Shown in pieces: positions 1 to 5,472 of a stretch of DNA of 5,472 bases. The stretch comes from Chloroflexota bacterium. GTDB taxonomy: Bacteria > Chloroflexota > Anaerolineae > Anaerolineales > Villigracilaceae. The stretch lies in NCBI GenBank assembly GCA_021823555.1, contig JAKANW010000261.1:1-5472 (forward strand), given 5' to 3'. Made by a program: the position numbers and the translations under genes. A model generated the notes under the pieces. The model was not told the origin of the DNA and ran no database searches. It saw nothing but the letters and a program-made list of their open reading frames with translations. How positions within the stretch are numbered: position 1 is the stretch's first letter; each line of letters opens with the position of its first letter.

Positions 1-503
1 CCGAACACCCCATAAACCAGCCGGCGGCGCTTGTGTTGGGCAGTATGGTTTTTTACTTCATCGAACAGGTCACATAAGGAAGCGTATGGCGTTCCGCTTA
101 ACTGCTTGCGGTAATCTCCATAAAAATGAACGGCAACGTCGTATTCTTTGTAAAACGAGAGAAAATAGGGATGTTCGGCTAATAGCGACATGCCGCTGCC
201 AATCTGTTCCATATATTCCTTGCCGCGATCCAAGATGTCGCTGCCGAAAACAGGTGCAATGATCGTATCCAATCCATAATCGAAGGCCAGTTCGTACGTT
301 TTTATGTATGCTTTGGCGGTTAGATCAATATAAGCCTTGGCAGGGTCCTCATGATTGGTACGGCCATATTCCAGCAGAAACCAGCGCCGCGTCCCGTTGA
401 AAGGGAACACTACCACCTTTGAGCCTGACACCCTTATAAGCTTGGCTACTTCTTTGGTAGGCAGGTGCAAGAATTCTTCGAGGGAGGGAACATTTGATTG
501 CAT
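1..503 (-). CDS. Partial Rv3378c-like diterpene synthase / prenyltransferase (3' end outside window)
   Basis: Reading the minus strand from the ATG at 503 gives 167 open codons that leave the left edge without a stop. The protein resembles, from memory, Mycobacterium tuberculosis Rv3378c (about 296 aa; tuberculosinol/isotuberculosinol synthase and adenosine tuberculosinyltransferase, with a cis-prenyltransferase fold). Matching blocks are EEFLHLP near residue 9, VVFPFNGTRRWFLLE (31-45), APVFGSDILDRGKEY (83-97), LSFYKEYDVAVHFYGDYRK (115-133) and a final YGVFG. Family members act on allylic diphosphates, so a soluble terpenoid-forming or prenyl-transferring enzyme is expected. The key difference is N36, where Rv3378c has Asp and cis-prenyltransferases have the Asp of their DGNGRW motif. 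ATG 503 is the only ATG before an upstream in-frame stop, and it aligns with the Rv3378c N terminus. No clear Shine-Dalgarno precedes it. It follows the acyltransferase gene after 25 bp, probably in the same mRNA. G+C is about 50%, lower than the reductase region. The family call is strong; substrate and product are unknown. Confidence 0.85.
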   Translation of the reverse strand, partial: MQSNVPSLEEFLHLPTKEVAKLIRVSGSKVVVFPFNGTRRWFLLEYGRTNHEDPAKAYIDLTAKAYIKTYELAFDYGLDTIIAPVFGSDILDRGKEYMEQIGSGMSLLAEHPYFLSFYKEYDVAVHFYGDYRKQLSGTPYASLCDLFDEVKNHTAQHKRRRLVYGVF

Positions 504-528
504 GATGACTTTGGTGGATGGTATTTGT

Positions 529-1572
529 TCAAGCGAATAATTTTATAAGCATACTTGTAATTCGGTTAGCAGTTGAGACAACAACGTAATTGTTTTCTTC
601 CAACTCAAAACCCAATTGTGCTTTCACATCATACGCCCCGCTCCCCCAGCGGAGCAGGCGGACGTGATGGTTGAATGCTTCCTCCAAACTTGTGTACGTC
701 AACAACAAATATACGTACGGAGCACTTCCTGCCAGGCCGAGCGCGGTGGTCATTTGCACCTCGTTATCTTCAAAGAGCGCGCCGCAACCGACCAATTTTC
801 CGTTTTGCCGCGCCTCCAGCCAGATGCCATTGATCATTTGGATATTTTCGAGCAGGCCGCGCGTCCACGGATTGGGTTCGTTGTGATAGTGACGGTCTAC
901 GTTGTGAATCAGCTCCAGCGCCGCGCTCACGTCTGGCGCCGTCTCGTGTCTCTCAATCGTGATGCCAAGTTTCTCAGCTTCGCGCCGGGTGCGCTTGTAA
1001 TGCTGGCGGTCTTTTTTATTTCCGTCGGCCAAATACCCTTCGAGGCTGAGCCAGCGGTTGTGCAGGATAGTTCCTGGATTGGGGACGGTGACCAGCGAAA
1101 AGCCGCCCGGCCAATTTTGACTCTCCTCCCGGGTCAGGAAGTCGAATACGAGCATCAGACTGCGCTTTTGCCTGCTGACCGTTAAAGCGGCCTGACTCAG
1201 CGCCCGCAGCGTCTCATCGCGTAACGGCCCAGGTGGGAGGACCAGCCCGGTTGCATTGGACAGGGGTGAGCGGCAGATGAGCAAAGGCCATCGGCGCAGG
1301 ATCGCTTTCAGAACGGCGCGCCCAACTCCGGGTCCGATGGGAAGCGGCTCGTCTCGGATCATCCACAAGGCAGCGCGTCCGACCAGCTTGTCATCCCGGT
1401 ATGCCAGTAGATAGATCGGTTCGCAGTCGTTCATCACGCGCTCACCGAATTGATACCAGTGATGGCTTTGGAACGGCCTGCCGGCCGAAAGTTCGTCCCA
1501 CGCCTGGCTGCTGATCTCGTGGATGCTGTACGCGGTTTGAATGGTAAGGTCCGGCGGTGTGGGACTTGTCAC
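529..1572 (-). CDS. GNAT-superfamily acyltransferase, FemAB/BioF2-like, 347 aa
   Basis: This is a complete 347-residue protein read from GTG (1572) to TGA. It looks like a two-lobed Acyl-CoA N-acyltransferase of the FemAB/BioF2-like type (Pfam Acetyltransf_6 or FemAB_like). The N-terminal lobe has WYQFGERVM at 39-47 followed by the strand pair PIYLLAYRDDKLVGRAALW (52-70). A basic helix NKKDRQHYKRTRREAEKLG (185-203) matches the Arg-rich helix typical of these proteins. The C-terminal lobe shows GKLVGCGALF (258-267) and a final WGSGAYDVKAQLGFE (309-323), in the position of the last GNAT strands. Relatives transfer amino-acyl or acyl groups to peptidoglycan, polysaccharide or small molecules; the acceptor cannot be read here. 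There is no signal peptide or membrane segment, so it is probably cytoplasmic. The next Met is residue 47, inside the N lobe, so GTG is the sensible start. No strong Shine-Dalgarno precedes it, but a TACAAT box ends six bases upstream. The Rv3378c-like gene follows after 25 bp. Confidence 0.82.
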   Translation of the reverse strand: MTSPTPPDLTIQTAYSIHEISSQAWDELSAGRPFQSHHWYQFGERVMNDCEPIYLLAYRDDKLVGRAALWMIRDEPLPIGPGVGRAVLKAILRRWPLLICRSPLSNATGLVLPPGPLRDETLRALSQAALTVSRQKRSLMLVFDFLTREESQNWPGGFSLVTVPNPGTILHNRWLSLEGYLADGNKKDRQHYKRTRREAEKLGITIERHETAPDVSAALELIHNVDRHYHNEPNPWTRGLLENIQMINGIWLEARQNGKLVGCGALFEDNEVQMTTALGLAGSAPYVYLLLTYTSLEEAFNHHVRLLRWGSGAYDVKAQLGFELEENNYVVVSTANRITSMLIKLFA

Positions 1573-1578
1573 GAGCCA

Positions 1579-1584
1579 ATTGTA
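1579..1584 (-). promoter_or_regulatory. Candidate -10 box (TACAAT) for the acyltransferase gene
   Basis: On the minus strand TACAAT, five of six bases of the sigma-70 -10 consensus, ends six bases before the GTG at 1572. That would place transcription start at or next to the G of the start codon, giving a leaderless mRNA. No convincing -35 box lies 16-18 bp upstream (the best hexamers read ACTTAA or AACTTA). The box is visible; promoter activity is inferred. Confidence 0.4.
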
Positions 1585-1642
1585 CTTCTGGAATTTTGGG
1601 TTTAAGTTGCAAAAAACTGATTAACAAAAGTGTAAAGCAAAA

Positions 1643-1671
1643 TTTCGGAAGTTGCCCCCAACCTTCCGAAG
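1643..1671 (-). terminator. Hairpin terminator behind the L12-like small gene
   Basis: An 8-bp perfect stem, TTCGGAAG (1644-1651) with CTTCCGAA (1663-1670), closes an 11-base loop rich in one base. Read on the minus strand it begins about 8 bases after the TAA of the 86-residue gene and is followed by ATTTTGCTTT, a moderately T-rich tail. This fits a rho-independent terminator for that gene. It makes read-through into the acyltransferase gene unlikely but does not exclude it. Confidence 0.6.
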
Positions 1672-1677
1672 TCCGTT

Positions 1678-1938
1678 TTATAGACCCAGCCTGGCTCTCA
1701 TTTCATCCACGGCGGCTTTGGCCGCCGCCAGGCCCACGTTGTGCGCCTCACGGTAGAACTTGATGGCGATGATCTCGTTATTCGTCTTCAAGGCCTCGAT
1801 GACCCGCGGATCGTCGGTCGAGTGTTCATCTTCGACGAAGGTGACGCCGAGATGCCTGTAAAGATAATCAACCTGCGCTTCCAGTCGGTTGATGCGACTC
1901 CGAAGTGAATAGATTTCCTGATCTGCTATTGTGGTCAT
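1678..1938 (-). CDS. Small coiled-coil protein with L7/L12 C-terminal-like domain, 86 aa
   Basis: Residues 1-35 form a heptad-like amphipathic helix (DQEIYSLRSRINRLEAQVDYL), probably a short coiled coil for oligomerisation. An acidic linker (EDEHSTDD, about 36-43) follows. Residues 45-84 read VIEALKTNNEIIAIKFYREA, then HNVGLAAAKAAVDEM, matching the alpha-beta-alpha pattern of the ribosomal protein bL12 C-terminal domain (IKxxRExTxxGLKEAKxxV). It is not bL12 itself: the usual dimerisation domain and Ala-rich hinge are absent, and the length is 86 rather than about 120. Small stand-alone proteins of this type occur in Chloroflexota and Actinomycetota without a settled function. The start is well supported: GGAGG (1945-1949) lies six bases before ATG 1938, and a TATAAT box lies upstream. 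There is no membrane segment or signal peptide. It appears monocistronic, with a hairpin terminator directly behind it. Confidence 0.8.
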   Translation of the reverse strand: MTTIADQEIYSLRSRINRLEAQVDYLYRHLGVTFVEDEHSTDDPRVIEALKTNNEIIAIKFYREAHNVGLAAAKAAVDEMRARLGL

Positions 1939-1967
1939 GCCATGCCTCCAATGAAAGAATTTTGGAG

Positions 1968-1973
1968 ATTATA
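1968..1973 (-). promoter_or_regulatory. Consensus -10 box (TATAAT) for the L12-like small gene
   Basis: Minus-strand TATAAT is a perfect sigma-70 -10 hexamer. Transcription would start near 1961, leaving a leader of roughly 22 bases that contains the GGAGG ribosome binding site. A clear -35 box is missing; the nearest hexamer at a 16-bp spacing is TGTACG. Position relative to the gene supports the call. Confidence 0.55.
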
Positions 1974-2054
1974 GCCGCGGGCTTTGGTGCGTACATCGTG
2001 CAGGGGTACTAACGCAAAGGACTTGGGTGTGTTTCAAACAAGTTGAGGGCAGCC

Positions 2055-2107
2055 TCCCGAAGGTTGAACTTAAGCCGATTTTGGCCTTTTATAATCAACC
2101 TTCGGGA
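2055..2107. repeat. Perfect 13-bp inverted repeat with 27-base spacer
   Basis: TCCCGAAGGTTGA (2055-2067) is repeated exactly in inverted form at 2095-2107. The spacer contains a second small hairpin (AAGCC/GGCCTT with one bulged C around the loop GATTTT, 2072-2088), so the element could fold as a long interrupted stem. Neither strand has a T-run after the outer stem, so it is not a typical intrinsic terminator. It may be a REP/MITE-like repeat or a protein-binding site. Confidence 0.7.
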
Positions 2108-2283
2108 CGGTTCCAACCCAAATGAAATACATCCAAAAAGCTTTGGAGGTTTTCCCTGATGCACCCAAGACGAGGCGCCTTCCGAAAAGGCTTCCGACTT
2201 CTTTCAGGATTCTCTTCTCATCGCAGTTGATCAGTTCATTGAACAACTGCAACACATGCTTGACCAGCCCTGCATGTAATGTG

Positions 2284-3267
2284 TTATTCCTCTACTCCTG
2301 GCTTTCCAACGATCTCATCCACTTGCTTCATCACATCGTCGGTCAGCTTCGGCAGCACATCCAGCGCCTTCATATTCTCGTGCACCTGTTCCACGCGGCT
2401 GGCGCCGGTGATGACCGTGCTCACGTTCGGGTTCTTTGCGCACCAGGCGATGGCGAACTGCGCCAGGGAACAACCCAACTCCCTGGCAATTGGCGCCAGC
2501 TTACGAACTTTGTCCAATCTCTCTTGGTCGGTCAGGGAGCTTTGCAGCCATTCATAACCTTTGAGCGTACCGCGGCTGTCCTCTGGGATGCCGTTGTTAT
2601 ACTTTCCGGTTAACAGGCCCGAAGCCAGCGGCGACCAGGTGGTAGTGCCCAGGCCAATGTCCTCGTAGAGACGGGCGAATTCCACTTCCACGCGTTGGCG
2701 GTGCAACAGGTTGTACTGCGGCTGTTCCATGGTCGGCTTGTGCCAGCCGTATTTGTCGCAGATGTTCCAGGCGGCGCGGATCTCGTCCGCGCTCCATTCG
2801 GAGACGCCCCAGTAAATGGCGCGTCCCGATTCGACGATGTTGTGCATGGCGTGGGCGGTCTCTTCGATGGGCGTGTTGGGGTCCGGGCGGTGACAAAAGG
2901 CCAGGTCCACGTAGTCCAGGTCGAGGCGCTTGAGCGAACCGTCCATGGCTTCCAGCAAGCGCTTGCGGTTGAGGGTGTTGCGCTCATTTGGTCCATCATG
3001 CAGGCCCCAAAAGAATTTGGTTGAGACCAGATAACTGCCTCGACGCCAGCCAAGTTTCTTGAGCGCCGCGCCCATCACTTCCTCGGACTTGCCGCCTGCA
3101 TACACTTCGGCGTTATCGAAGAAGTTGACGCCTGCATCGTAGGCGGCCTTCATCATCTCAACGGCTGAGTCGACATCAGCCTGCGTGTGGAACGTGACCC
3201 ATGATCCGAACGATAAAGTACTGACCTGAATTCCGGCCCGTCCCAGGCGGCGGTAAGACATTTCCAT
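2284..3267 (-). CDS. Aldo/keto reductase, Kv-beta/AKR6-like, 327 aa
   Basis: This is a full-length NADPH-dependent oxidoreductase of the aldo/keto reductase superfamily, a cytoplasmic TIM barrel that reduces aldehydes and ketones. The catalytic tetrad is complete: D51 and Y56 in [14 protein letters not shown]84 in STKFFWG, and H126 in [13 protein letters not shown]. Several blocks closely follow the animal voltage-gated K+ channel beta subunit and bacterial YghZ-type enzymes: GWRRGS (73-78), [13 protein letters not shown] (112-124), RPDPNTP (127-133), [27 protein letters not shown] and QFAIAWC. The C-terminal [15 protein letters not shown] fits the cofactor-phosphate binding loop. The natural substrate cannot be named. 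Start 3267 is supported by AAGGAG (3274-3279) six bases upstream; a second Met two codons on is a less likely start. It is divergent to the hydrolase gene and shares its promoter region. No ion channel gene is visible, so a channel role is not implied. Confidence 0.93.
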
Positions 3268-3301
3268 ATTTAGCTCCTTTGTTTGTTTTGGCGTGCGCCT
3301 A

Positions 3302-3330
3302 ATTTTACTCGAAGCGTTTATGAGTGTAAA
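3302..3330 (-). promoter_or_regulatory. Sigma-70-type promoter of the aldo/keto reductase
   Basis: On the minus strand, TTTACA (3330-3325) and TAAAAT (3307-3302) are separated by exactly 17 bp, five of six consensus bases each. Transcription would begin near 3295, giving a leader of about 28 bases that carries the AAGGAG site. It overlaps the opposite promoter of the hydrolase gene almost completely. Confidence 0.65.
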
Positions 3331-3332
3331 AT
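3304..3332 (+). promoter_or_regulatory. Sigma-70-type promoter of the maspardin-like hydrolase
   Basis: TTTACT (3304-3309) and TAAAAT (3327-3332) are spaced by 17 bp. The -10 box ends six bases before ATG 3339, so transcription would start at the A of the start codon and the mRNA would be leaderless. No Shine-Dalgarno sequence precedes the ATG, which agrees with this reading. Confidence 0.6.
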
Positions 3333-3338
3333 TGACCG

Positions 3339-4190
3339 ATGGAAACCGACATGCGTTTTGCTGACTTATACCTGAAGGTCTCTCCTGAAACCGTGGCTTC
3401 GTTGCGGGCTTTTCGAAACGAGTATGCTCCCAAAAAACTGCGGGTGAACGGCGCTGCCTGGGAATATACAGCTTTGGGGCAGGGAGACGAAACCATCCTG
3501 TTTTTGCACGGCATGACCGGCGCGTATGATATTTGGTGGCAGCAAATGGCCGCGCTGCAAAAACAGTACCGCCTCATCTCGTTGACTTATCCGCCGGTGG
3601 ACACGCTCAAGGGGATGGCCGCGGCGGTGCTGGCTATCCTGGATGCGGAGTCCGCGAAGCGGGTCAACCTGGTGGGGACTTCACTGGGTGGATACTTCTC
3701 CCAGTATCTCGTAGCGCATCACCCGGACCGAATCCTGCGCGCCGTTTTCTCGAACACCTTCCCGCCGAATGATTTGATCGCTGCGAGGAACAGGACGATT
3801 GGCATGGCTTTGCCCTACCTGCCGGAGTGGTTCGTGTTGAATTTCCTGCGTAGTAACTTCCAAAAGAGTATCTATCCTGCTTCCGGCTACGATGAACTGA
3901 CCCTGGCCTTCCTGATGGAAATTGGCTTGGGTCGCATGGGCAAGGCCCAGGTATTGGCGCGTTACCGCTGCGTTGTGGACCCGTTCCCCGCGCCCGATCC
4001 GTCTGCGCTGGATATCCCGGTGATGATCGTCGAAGCCGATAACGACCCGCTGGTGGAGCGAACGCTGCGTGAGCAATTGAAAGCGACCTATCCTTCTGCG
4101 AGAGTCCACACCTTTTCGGGGGCGGGACATTTCCTTTACCTGAATCATCCCGAAGAATTTACCAGCTTGCTGGCAGGTTTTTTCAAATAA
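3339..4190 (+). CDS. Alpha/beta hydrolase, maspardin (SPG21)-like, 283 aa
   Basis: This is a complete alpha/beta-hydrolase fold protein. The oxyanion-hole motif is LHGMTG (56-61), the nucleophile elbow is GTSLGG with S115, the probable acid is D236 in EADNDPLV, and the catalytic His is H264 in GAGHFLYL, so the triad appears intact. The pattern resembles eukaryotic maspardin: [30 protein letters not shown], then a helical cap with NFQKSIYP, and the C-terminal [12 protein letters not shown] and YPSARVHTF. Members are esterases, lipases or protein-binding relatives; the substrate cannot be deduced. There is no signal peptide or lipobox, so it is probably cytoplasmic. ATG 3339 sits right after a promoter with no room for a ribosome binding site. 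An alternative ATG at 3351 (residue 5) follows a weak GGAAA and is possible. The gene is divergent to the reductase and ends before a strong terminator. Confidence 0.9.
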
Positions 4191-4252
4191 CCGATGTTAC
4201 ACACCGTCCCGCAGGTTTAATCCAAAATCAGGCAAGGTGAGTCAAATAAGAC

Positions 4253-4282
4253 AACAACCCCTGGAGAAATCCAGGGGTTGTT
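4253..4282. terminator. Bidirectional intrinsic terminator
   Basis: A perfect 12-bp stem, AACAACCCCTGG (4253-4264) with CCAGGGGTTGTT (4271-4282), closes the six-base loop AGAAAT. The plus-strand tail is TTGTTTG and the minus-strand tail GTCTTATTTG, both moderately T-rich. It lies 62 bp after the hydrolase stop and 21 bp after the surface-protein stop, so it probably ends transcription of both convergent genes. Confidence 0.88.
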
Positions 4283-4303
4283 TGTGATGGGTGGATTGCC
4301 TGG

Positions 4304-5472
4304 TTAGGGCAGGGGCAGGTTCAATGTCTTCACCATGAGCACGGCCATTTGCGCTCGTGTGACCGGGCTTTCCGGGCAGAAGCTGCCATTTCCGCAACCG
4401 GCGGAAATTCCTTCATTGTAGAGTTCCTCGATCCATGCCGCGGCCCAGTAATTGGTCGGCACATCCGAGAAGATGCCCGTAGCTGGTGGAGGTGTATAGG
4501 CAGCGCCATGCTTCAGGCGCAAGAGGAAGACCGCCATTTGGGCGCGCGAGACCGGATCATCGGGACAGAACAGATTTGGCCCGCACCCAATGGTCAGGCT
4601 TTCGCTGCGCAGGGCTTCGATCCAATATTGCGCCCAGTTGCCAGCCGTGTCGGCAAAGGTGATCGGTACGACAGGAGGGGTGTAGCCTGCGCCGTGGATG
4701 GCCCGTTTCAGGAAGACCGCCATTTCGGCCCGGGTGATGTTGTTTTCGGGGCAGAAGATGAGAGGCGAGGTTCCGCATCCGCCTGTGATACCGGCATAGT
4801 AGATGGCGTTGATGTAAGGTTCGGCCCAGTATCCCACAGGGACATCCGCAAAGATTTGCGTTGCTACCGCGGTTATCGTGAGGGTGAAGTTTTGGGTGGC
4901 ATCGGGCGTTACACTGTTGTGCGCAGTGATCGTGAAATTGTAGATCCCTTCGGTGCCATTGGCCGGAGTGCCGCTCAAGGTGGCCGTACCATCGCCGTTG
5001 TCGTGGAACGATAAGCCGCCGGGCAGCACTGCCCCGCCGTCGCTGAGCGTCGGCGCGGGGTAACCGGTTGCAGTGATCGTAAAGGTTCCTGGCTGGCCCG
5101 CGGGGAGTGTGATGAAGTCTGCGCTGGTGATGGACGGAGCCTGATTCACCGTGAGGGTGAAGTTCTGGGTGGCGTTGGGAGTGACGCCGTTATTAGCGGT
5201 GATCACGAGTGAATAGACGCCGCCTGTACCGGTCACGGGAGTCCCGGCCAGGGTGGCAGTACCATCCCCATTGTCCGTGAAGGTAACGCCGGTTGGCAAG
5301 GCGCCAGACTCGCTAATGGCAGGATTGGGATAGCCGGTCGTATGAACGGTGAAGGTTCCCGCTGAACCAACGACAAAGGTGGCGTTGGTTGTACTGGTGA
5401 TGGCTGGCGGCTGACCCACAACCAGTGTGAAGTTCTGACTGGCATCCGGGCCAATACCGTTGTGGGCGGTGA
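4304..5472 (-). CDS. Partial surface protein: tandem Ig-like (He_PIG) repeats plus three C-terminal SLH repeats (5' end outside window)
   Basis: The minus-strand frame is open from the right edge to TAA at 4304, giving 388 visible residues. A GTG at 5419 is only an internal Val: the frame continues upstream with GPDASQNFTLVV, which aligns with the same position in the downstream repeats. The visible part holds the tail of one Ig-like repeat and two complete copies of about 91 residues with GYPxP, LPxGxxFxDNGDGTATLxGTP, and ITAxNxVTPxATQNFTL. These match the putative-Ig (He_PIG) pattern of bacterial surface proteins. Three SLH repeats follow, each with F(A/S)D..., a helix, GCG...FCP and an (T/S)RA(E/Q)MAV helix. 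SLH domains normally tether exported proteins to cell-wall polymers or envelope glycans, so an extracellular adhesin or S-layer-associated role is likely. The signal peptide and any catalytic N-terminal domain lie outside the window. Transcription ends at the bidirectional terminator. Confidence 0.9.
   Translation of the reverse strand, partial: TAHNGIGPDASQNFTLVVGQPPAITSTTNATFVVGSAGTFTVHTTGYPNPAISESGALPTGVTFTDNGDGTATLAGTPVTGTGGVYSLVITANNGVTPNATQNFTLTVNQAPSITSADFITLPAGQPGTFTITATGYPAPTLSDGGAVLPGGLSFHDNGDGTATLSGTPANGTEGIYNFTITAHNSVTPDATQNFTLTITAVATQIFADVPVGYWAEPYINAIYYAGITGGCGTSPLIFCPENNITRAEMAVFLKRAIHGAGYTPPVVPITFADTAGNWAQYWIEALRSESLTIGCGPNLFCPDDPVSRAQMAVFLLRLKHGAAYTPPPATGIFSDVPTNYWAAAWIEELYNEGISAGCGNGSFCPESPVTRAQMAVLMVKTLNLPLP
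4307..4855 (-). repeat. Three SLH repeats with paired cysteines (protein-level)
   Basis: The repeats are encoded at about 4855-4664, 4663-4475 and 4474-4307. Each starts IFADV, ITFAD or IFSDV, has a W-containing helix (GYWAEPYI, NWAQYWIE, NYWAAAWIE), a Cys pair (GCGTSPLIFCP, GCGPNLFCP, GCGNGSFCP) and ends with a TRAEMAVFL-type helix. Gly/Pro-rich linkers (GAGYTPP, GAAYTPPP) join them. The invariant Cys spacing across all three copies suggests a disulfide or a metal site. Confidence 0.88.
4874..5416 (-). repeat. Two complete ~91-residue Ig-like repeats (plus the tail of a third at 5420-5470)
   Basis: Copy A (5416-5147) and copy B (5146-4874) align over their whole length with shared blocks TGYPxP, DNGDGTATLxGTP and TPxATQNFTLT. 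A third, partial copy continues off the right edge. Near-equal unit length (90 and 91 codons) and conserved nucleotide blocks indicate tandem duplication; more copies probably lie upstream. Confidence 0.88.

Follow-up and report, generated by a model that had tools for sequence, protein, structure and literature searches.

A Chloroflexota homolog of the diterpene synthase Rv3378c with asparagine at the catalytic aspartate position, most likely an active variant shared by a clade

We analyzed a 5,472-nucleotide stretch of Villigracilaceae (Anaerolineales) DNA, hereafter the window (assembly GCA_021823555.1, contig JAKANW010000261.1, positions 1 to 5,472 of the forward strand), whose left edge cuts a gene encoding a homolog of mycobacterial Rv3378c with Asn where Rv3378c has Asp34. 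The encoded enzyme is most likely a natural Asp-to-Asn variant of this known family that is still active; by analogy with its relatives, we think it probable that it works without the Asp and, with a class II diterpene cyclase as its partner, makes a diterpene alcohol. It is of interest because a whole clade has lost a catalytic acid, because of its gene neighborhood, and because it bears on the origin of the mycobacterial locus. The remainder of the gene lies beyond the left edge, and statements about the full-length protein rest on relatives, designated L001 and up. The features of the gene are as follows.

3..503, minus strand: first 167 codons of a diterpene synthase of the Rv3378c type (cis-prenyltransferase fold), truncated at the window edge (open reading frame [ORF] and similarity to Rv3378c)
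378..407, minus strand: FPFNGTRRWF at residues 33-42, equivalent to F31-F40 of Rv3378c and to the Asp motif of cis-prenyltransferases
396..398, minus strand: AAC codon of Asn36, aligned with Rv3378c Asp34
330..332, minus strand: Tyr58, counterpart of Rv3378c Tyr51 (Y51F in 3wqn and 4kt8), counted along the alignment
213..215, minus strand: Tyr97, counterpart of Rv3378c Tyr90 (Y90F in 4kt8), counted along the alignment

The synthase ORF begins with an ATG at 503 and is open to the left edge, with no stop over its 167 codons. When the fragment was compared with all PDB chain sequences by phmmer, the first four matches were Rv3378c constructs, with scores between 128.6 and 125.8 bits and E values from 2e-36 to 2e-35, led by 3wqm (128.6 bits, E 2.3e-36) and 3wqk (128.3 bits, E 2.9e-36); the best match to anything else had an E of 0.024. 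Residues 4-167 align with residues 2-161 of 3wqk, N36 pairs with D34, and the flanks FPF-GTRRWF are identical. Similarity to Rv3378c amounts to 128 bits for the fragment, 280 bits for the full-length relative L001 (42-45% identical), and 352 bits for a profile. The preliminary description had assigned the edge-cut ORF to the Rv3378c family and placed Asn at the Asp position of a DGTRRW-like motif; both assignments hold (128 bits, E 3e-36), the similarity being significant and N36 lying inside the motif. Chance similarity was ruled out by the phmmer score (E ~3e-36), and a sequencing slip or private mutation at Asn36 by the occurrence of Asn throughout the clade. In a scan of the fragment alone, no Pfam or NCBIfam model, the curated Pfam model of the UppS type included, matched with an E of 1 or below. 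Its nearest relatives in our tree are L004 and then L003 (68% identical over the fragment), and the nearest database protein (P0002) shows 74% identity across 86% of it.

A fold search with a close relative returned the cis-prenyltransferase fold, and Rv3378c structures (PDB 3wqk, 4kt8, and 3wql) and the window type are alike in fold, in the Arg37-Arg38 pair, and in the equivalents of Tyr51 and Tyr90; all four residues are present in the window synthase, and Asn36 replaces Asp34 of DGTRRW. The fold is also common to cis-prenyltransferases (UppS, DHDDS, and the neryl and lavandulyl diphosphate synthases), but these condense isopentenyl diphosphate, of which the window type gives no sign, and their catalytic Asp binds Mg2+ (as in DHDDS; PMC7573591), whereas the window enzyme has Asn36 there. 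That Asp is regarded as central to the fold's chemistry. A large natural clade that has taken up Asn there, with its gene neighbors and other active-site residues retained, offers a ready-made test of its role.

Scanning of genome contigs yielded 57 loci, all with titles naming Chloroflexi/Chloroflexota, Anaerolineae, Anaerolineales, Anaerolineaceae, or Thermoflexales metagenome-assembled genomes. The position equivalent to Asp34 is Asn in 56 of them and Lys in one, encoded by AAC (n = 38), AAT (n = 18), or AAG (n = 1); the next residue is Gly in 54 and Asn in three. Asp occurs in none of the 57, though a single base change would restore it. Protein databases gave the same picture: among the 24 proteins listed in a first homolog search, all members spanning the motif read NGTRRW, and among 145 best-scoring homologs (window included; the best 120 of 2,459 proteins from a profile search were used), 142 have Asn, one has Lys, and two are fragments that begin after the motif, although such best-scoring matches are biased toward the query's own clade. 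The few departures are NNTRRW, in three loci, and KGTRRW, in two distinct genes (L042, identical to L073, and L071). More divergent variation appeared in 23 further rows (L088 and up), where the position is Gly (n = 11), Asp (n = 6), Asn (n = 5), or Ala (n = 1); six of these rows are Herpetosiphon-type (five Gly, one Ala), and the Asn row L105 is of the ordinary Asn type.

A quick tree of 88 rows, built without the Asp34 column (four rows duplicate others, and two Asn rows were left out), placed the Asn and Lys rows in one group of 71 rows (SH-aLRT support 85, not starred), confirming that Asn marks a clade, as the preliminary description had proposed to check. The six Asp rows form two deep, long-branch groups, and Gly occurs in three places. 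The five residue states require five changes on this tree, compared with a possible minimum of four and a mean of 19.3 for shuffled states. The position is thus Asp, Asn, Lys, Gly, or Ala according to clade, and the informative comparison lies within the family; judging from these alignments, Asp34 does not seem to define the Rv3378c type. SH-aLRT is the sole support measure, long branches come together, and the rooting was chosen arbitrarily; the tree therefore does not establish the direction of change. Three genomes carry an Asn-type copy and an Asp- or Gly-type copy on separate contigs (G168, L080 and L093; G292, L066 and L101; G409, L105 and L114), which suggests separate roles for the two types.

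In contrast to the Asp position, the tyrosines and arginines are the constant parts of the family. The Arg38 equivalent is Arg in 57/57 loci and 23/23 further rows and the Arg37 equivalent in 57/57 and 19/23; the Tyr90 equivalent is Tyr in 56/57 loci and 23/23 rows, and the Tyr51 equivalent in 56/57 (a gap in one) and 18/23. Among the Rv3378c structures found in the fold search are, by their titles, a Y51F variant with TPP and a Y51F/Y90F double variant with the substrate TPP. Among the papers listed, our literature search found no report on a change of Asp34 in Rv3378c.

Turning to the gene neighborhood of relatives, we counted neighbors at 55 unfused loci, 50 of which have at least 1,600 bases downstream, assigning families from cluster representatives. 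A class II diterpene cyclase gene follows on the same strand at 47 of these 50 (within 150 bp at 42), so that the preliminary description, which advised looking for such a gene nearby, is borne out in relatives; the window itself stops short of the expected place. The L001 cyclase has its best PDB match in 6vpt (460 bits; the next, 120 bits), which is Rv3377c (PMC9814783). Where there is room, a histidine kinase gene follows the cyclase gene at 39 of 42 loci (exceptions: L025, L033, and L040), and a response regulator gene follows the kinase at 25 of 39. Genes of four potential tailoring families lie within ~6 kb on the same strand: FemAB/GNAT-like (n = 26), ICMT-like (n = 15), GT87 (n = 14, plus four on the other strand), and sulfotransferase (n = 11); none of the four is near the synthase at 12 of the 55 loci, short contigs included. 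The window contributes one such gene, which lies upstream of the synthase on the same strand with a gap of 25 bp and clusters with the FemAB/GNAT group that often occupies the same place in relatives.

529..1572, minus strand: FemAB/GNAT-like acyltransferase (Pfam FemAB_like, 31.3 bits; cutoff, 27)

At two loci, L052 (9887-12415) and L053 (9929-12415), a single ORF of 828-842 codons joins an Rv3378c-like domain to a class II diterpene cyclase, and a histidine kinase gene comes next; on a Pfam scan of the L052 ORF, we regard the fusion as a natural bifunctional version of the two-gene cassette. L041 and L056 each have a pair of class II cyclase genes downstream of the synthase. At L048 (6451-9474) and L049 (9914-12981), a histidine kinase gene directly follows the synthase with no cyclase gene between them.

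By analogy with relatives, the pathway can be sketched as follows. A class II diterpene cyclase encoded just past the left edge would convert geranylgeranyl diphosphate to a bicyclic diterpenyl diphosphate, probably of the halimane type. The window enzyme would then ionize the allylic diphosphate, which the paired arginines, together with the two conserved tyrosines, would hold in place of Asp-bound Mg2+. Capture of the cation by water would yield a diterpene alcohol of the tuberculosinol/kolavelool type. Tailoring enzymes may decorate the alcohol: the FemAB/GNAT acyltransferase in the window, and a sulfotransferase, ICMT-like methyltransferase, or GT87 glycosyltransferase in relatives. The presumably cotranscribed histidine kinase and response regulator may regulate or sense the diterpenoid. 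Stated more broadly, the product is most likely either a diterpene alcohol or a transferred diterpenyl group, derived in both cases from a bicyclic diphosphate ionized without a Mg2+-binding carboxylate. Taken together, the kinase, the tailoring genes, and the fusion of synthase and cyclase point to a diterpenoid system in these bacteria.

A relative from Herpetosiphon is Asp-less as well. Because genome G497 contains the first 6,000 bases of Herpetosiphon aurantiacus DSM 785 plasmid pHAU01 (CP000876) at 100% identity, we took it to be H. aurantiacus. Its single family protein (L121) reads VFSSGGSRRK. Upstream of its gene lies that for a 523-codon protein 99% identical to a class II cyclase of genome G646, and the other neighbor encodes a protein of 311 codons that shares 99% identity with a methyltransferase of G646. 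This arrangement fits the O-methylkolavelool cluster, reportedly described by Nakano in 2015, which includes a methyltransferase gene. Haur_2145 is a kolavenyl diphosphate cyclase (PMC9814783), and HaKS converts kolavenyl diphosphate to (+)-kolavelool (PMC9440906). From cluster composition, the Gly-bearing H. aurantiacus protein is evidently the kolavelool synthase, and the family thus evidently includes this enzyme, as the preliminary description had supposed. HaKS (ABX04786, beside Haur_2145) resembles the window type in family, in its partner class II cyclase, and in the absence of Asp, and its locus, like the Asn loci, has kinase and response regulator genes nearby. It differs in having Gly and Lys where the window enzyme has Asn and Trp, in its upstream rather than downstream cyclase gene, and in being far more divergent (56 bits to Rv3378c). 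Since the Asn clade keeps the other active-site residues and a cyclase partner, and since the evident kolavelool synthase has Gly, Asp looks dispensable in the Rv3378c family.

Several points weigh against an active Asn enzyme paired with a cyclase. In human DHDDS, Asp34 coordinates the Mg2+ of the diphosphate, and D34N had the lowest activity of three substitutions, a ~16-fold drop (wild type, 1.32; D34A, 0.35; D34E, 0.10; D34N, 0.08 µmol/h/mg; PMC7573591); Asn could therefore simply cost activity. Our literature search found no assay of any Asn member. L048, L049, and L050 have no cyclase gene beside the synthase. A search with the L001 cyclase of eight draft genomes (those of L048, L049, L014, L024, L028, L045, L050, and L003) gave four full-length matches, no match in the drafts of L048, L049, and L014, and only a weak 71-residue match in that of L024. 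Near the window's clade, the Tyr479 position of the cyclase is occupied by Asn in L001, L002, and L003, which makes the skeleton uncertain. Finally, the evident identity of the H. aurantiacus gene as kolavelool synthase comes from cluster composition, not from looking up the sequence of ABX04786.

The most serious alternative keeps the fold and the ionization but passes the cation to an acceptor other than water, which could be a nucleoside (Rv3378c uses adenosine) or some other small molecule. As a tuberculosinyl transferase, Rv3378c makes 1-TbAd, with isotuberculosinol as a by-product (PMC11476799), and its best score among the four full-length proteins compared is with L001, a member of the window's PFNG group (280 bits). 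The sulfotransferase, methyltransferase, and glycosyltransferase genes near many relatives better fit a free hydroxyl, however, and the Asp-less relative of known product, kolavelool synthase, makes an alcohol (PMC9440906); we consider transfer to such an acceptor unlikely, if worth keeping in mind.

The preliminary description had left a choice between different chemistry and loss of the ancestral reaction. Different chemistry in the Asn members appears likely, and loss of function is disfavored: a large Chloroflexota group shares the Asn and keeps the gene beside a cyclase gene, which argues for a working variant rather than a dead copy, and the operon, Arg pair, and catalytic tyrosines are conserved while Asp, one base away, is found in 0/57 loci. 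A specific form of the loss-of-function idea, that Asn members are catalytically dead but persist in the cyclase-kinase operon as a subunit for binding or regulation, much as the inactive partner NgBR does in human cis-prenyltransferase, draws on the occurrence of inactive partners in this fold and on the ~16-fold loss in D34N (PMC7573591). It strikes us as improbable, because the Arg pair and both tyrosines are almost invariant, no locus has a second close synthase copy (one cluster member per locus; close copies only), the Asn is held rather than drifting, and the Gly-bearing H. aurantiacus protein evidently works. Asn-Gly is a classic deamidation-prone pair, and Gly follows the position in 54/57 loci, but posttranslational deamidation that regenerates the acid, making the mature enzyme an ordinary Asp type, is hardly credible given NNTRRW in three loci, KGTRRW in two distinct genes, Gly and Ala in other clades, and an Asp codon one base away that is unused in 57 loci.

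Returning to the Asn-type synthase and its cyclase, their arrangement bears on the mycobacterial pair. From gene names, we take the mycobacterial order to be Rv3378c followed by Rv3377c, the order of the Asn clade. The synthase precedes the cyclase in 47/50 Asn loci and also at L088, L090, L092, and L118; the cyclase is directly upstream at 8 of 11 Asp-, Gly-, or Ala-type loci (L095, L096, L098, L101, L103, L115, L116, and L119), whereas at L089 it lies downstream, separated by two genes, and none is in view at L093 and L117 (the sample of 11 left out L099, L102, and L114). Neighborhoods of the Asn relatives differ from that of Rv3378c in their histidine kinase, response regulator, and tailoring genes. 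Bit scores to Rv3378c for four full-length proteins are 280 (L001, of the window's PFNG group and the top scorer), 252 (L030), 234 (L013), and 56 (H. aurantiacus). When Rv3378c, which is not in the tree, was placed crudely by its pattern of phmmer scores against L001, L013, and L030, its nearest rows were L083 and L040, both in the Asn clade. Gene order and bit scores together hint at a place for Rv3378c within the Asn clade and at a secondary origin of its Asp.

An extended and tentative reading is that the Rv3378c family ionizes allylic diphosphates without a Mg2+-binding carboxylate, the residue having been replaced several times; Asn-clade Chloroflexota, having the mycobacterial gene order and the closest sequences among the types examined, might then be the reservoir of the mycobacterial cassette, with Asp34 a secondary return perhaps tied to nucleoside transfer. 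If true, this would conflict with the plant-associated plasmid origin proposed in 2024 from base composition (PMC11476799). The same paper states that initial efforts to find orthologs of Rv3376, Rv3377c, or Rv3378c beyond the mycobacteria failed, whereas dozens of genomes of environmental Chloroflexota carry clear two-gene counterparts, which bear on the origin of the tuberculosis locus.

The cyclase-synthase pairing itself is already known: an Rv3377c subfamily comprises 126 terrabacterial enzymes, and Rv3378c equivalents occur in 44% of the clusters of Rv3377c homologs and 21% of those of the Haur_2145 family (PMC9814783). That study shows the same pairing, and its loci probably overlap ours; it is centered on the cyclase, its cluster section names no organisms, its main text lacks the word "Chloroflexi," and its relevant section does not mention the synthase Asn, the kinase, or the fusion. 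Judged by titles and the starts of abstracts, no paper among those listed in a literature search on diterpene or terpene synthases of Anaerolineae/Chloroflexota deals with these operons. Many members already bear the JGI and NCBI names "tuberculosinol/isotuberculosinol synthase" or "diterpene synthase." The family profile matched 43 of 396 sampled genomes of L001's class and 21 of 400 of its phylum (E of 0.001 or below, a count that takes in weak and divergent matches), so a copy in an uncultured-type genome, which the preliminary description called notable, is not out of the ordinary. The contig scan gave no Mycobacterium although Rv3378c fits one scan pattern by eye, and the absence of other phyla there is therefore weak evidence.

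Two other minus-strand genes of the window were annotated with Pfam; the product of the larger is probably an S-layer or surface-anchored protein.

4304-5470, minus strand: truncated protein containing Ig-like repeats (He_PIG) and three SLH stretches
1678-1938, minus strand: 86-amino-acid protein that resembles the C-terminal domain of ribosomal L7/L12 below the threshold (16.1 bits; cutoff, 25.9)

Among relatives, the gene following the Gly-type synthase at L096 (6476-7465) matches the Pfam streptomycin adenylyltransferase family (130.9 bits).
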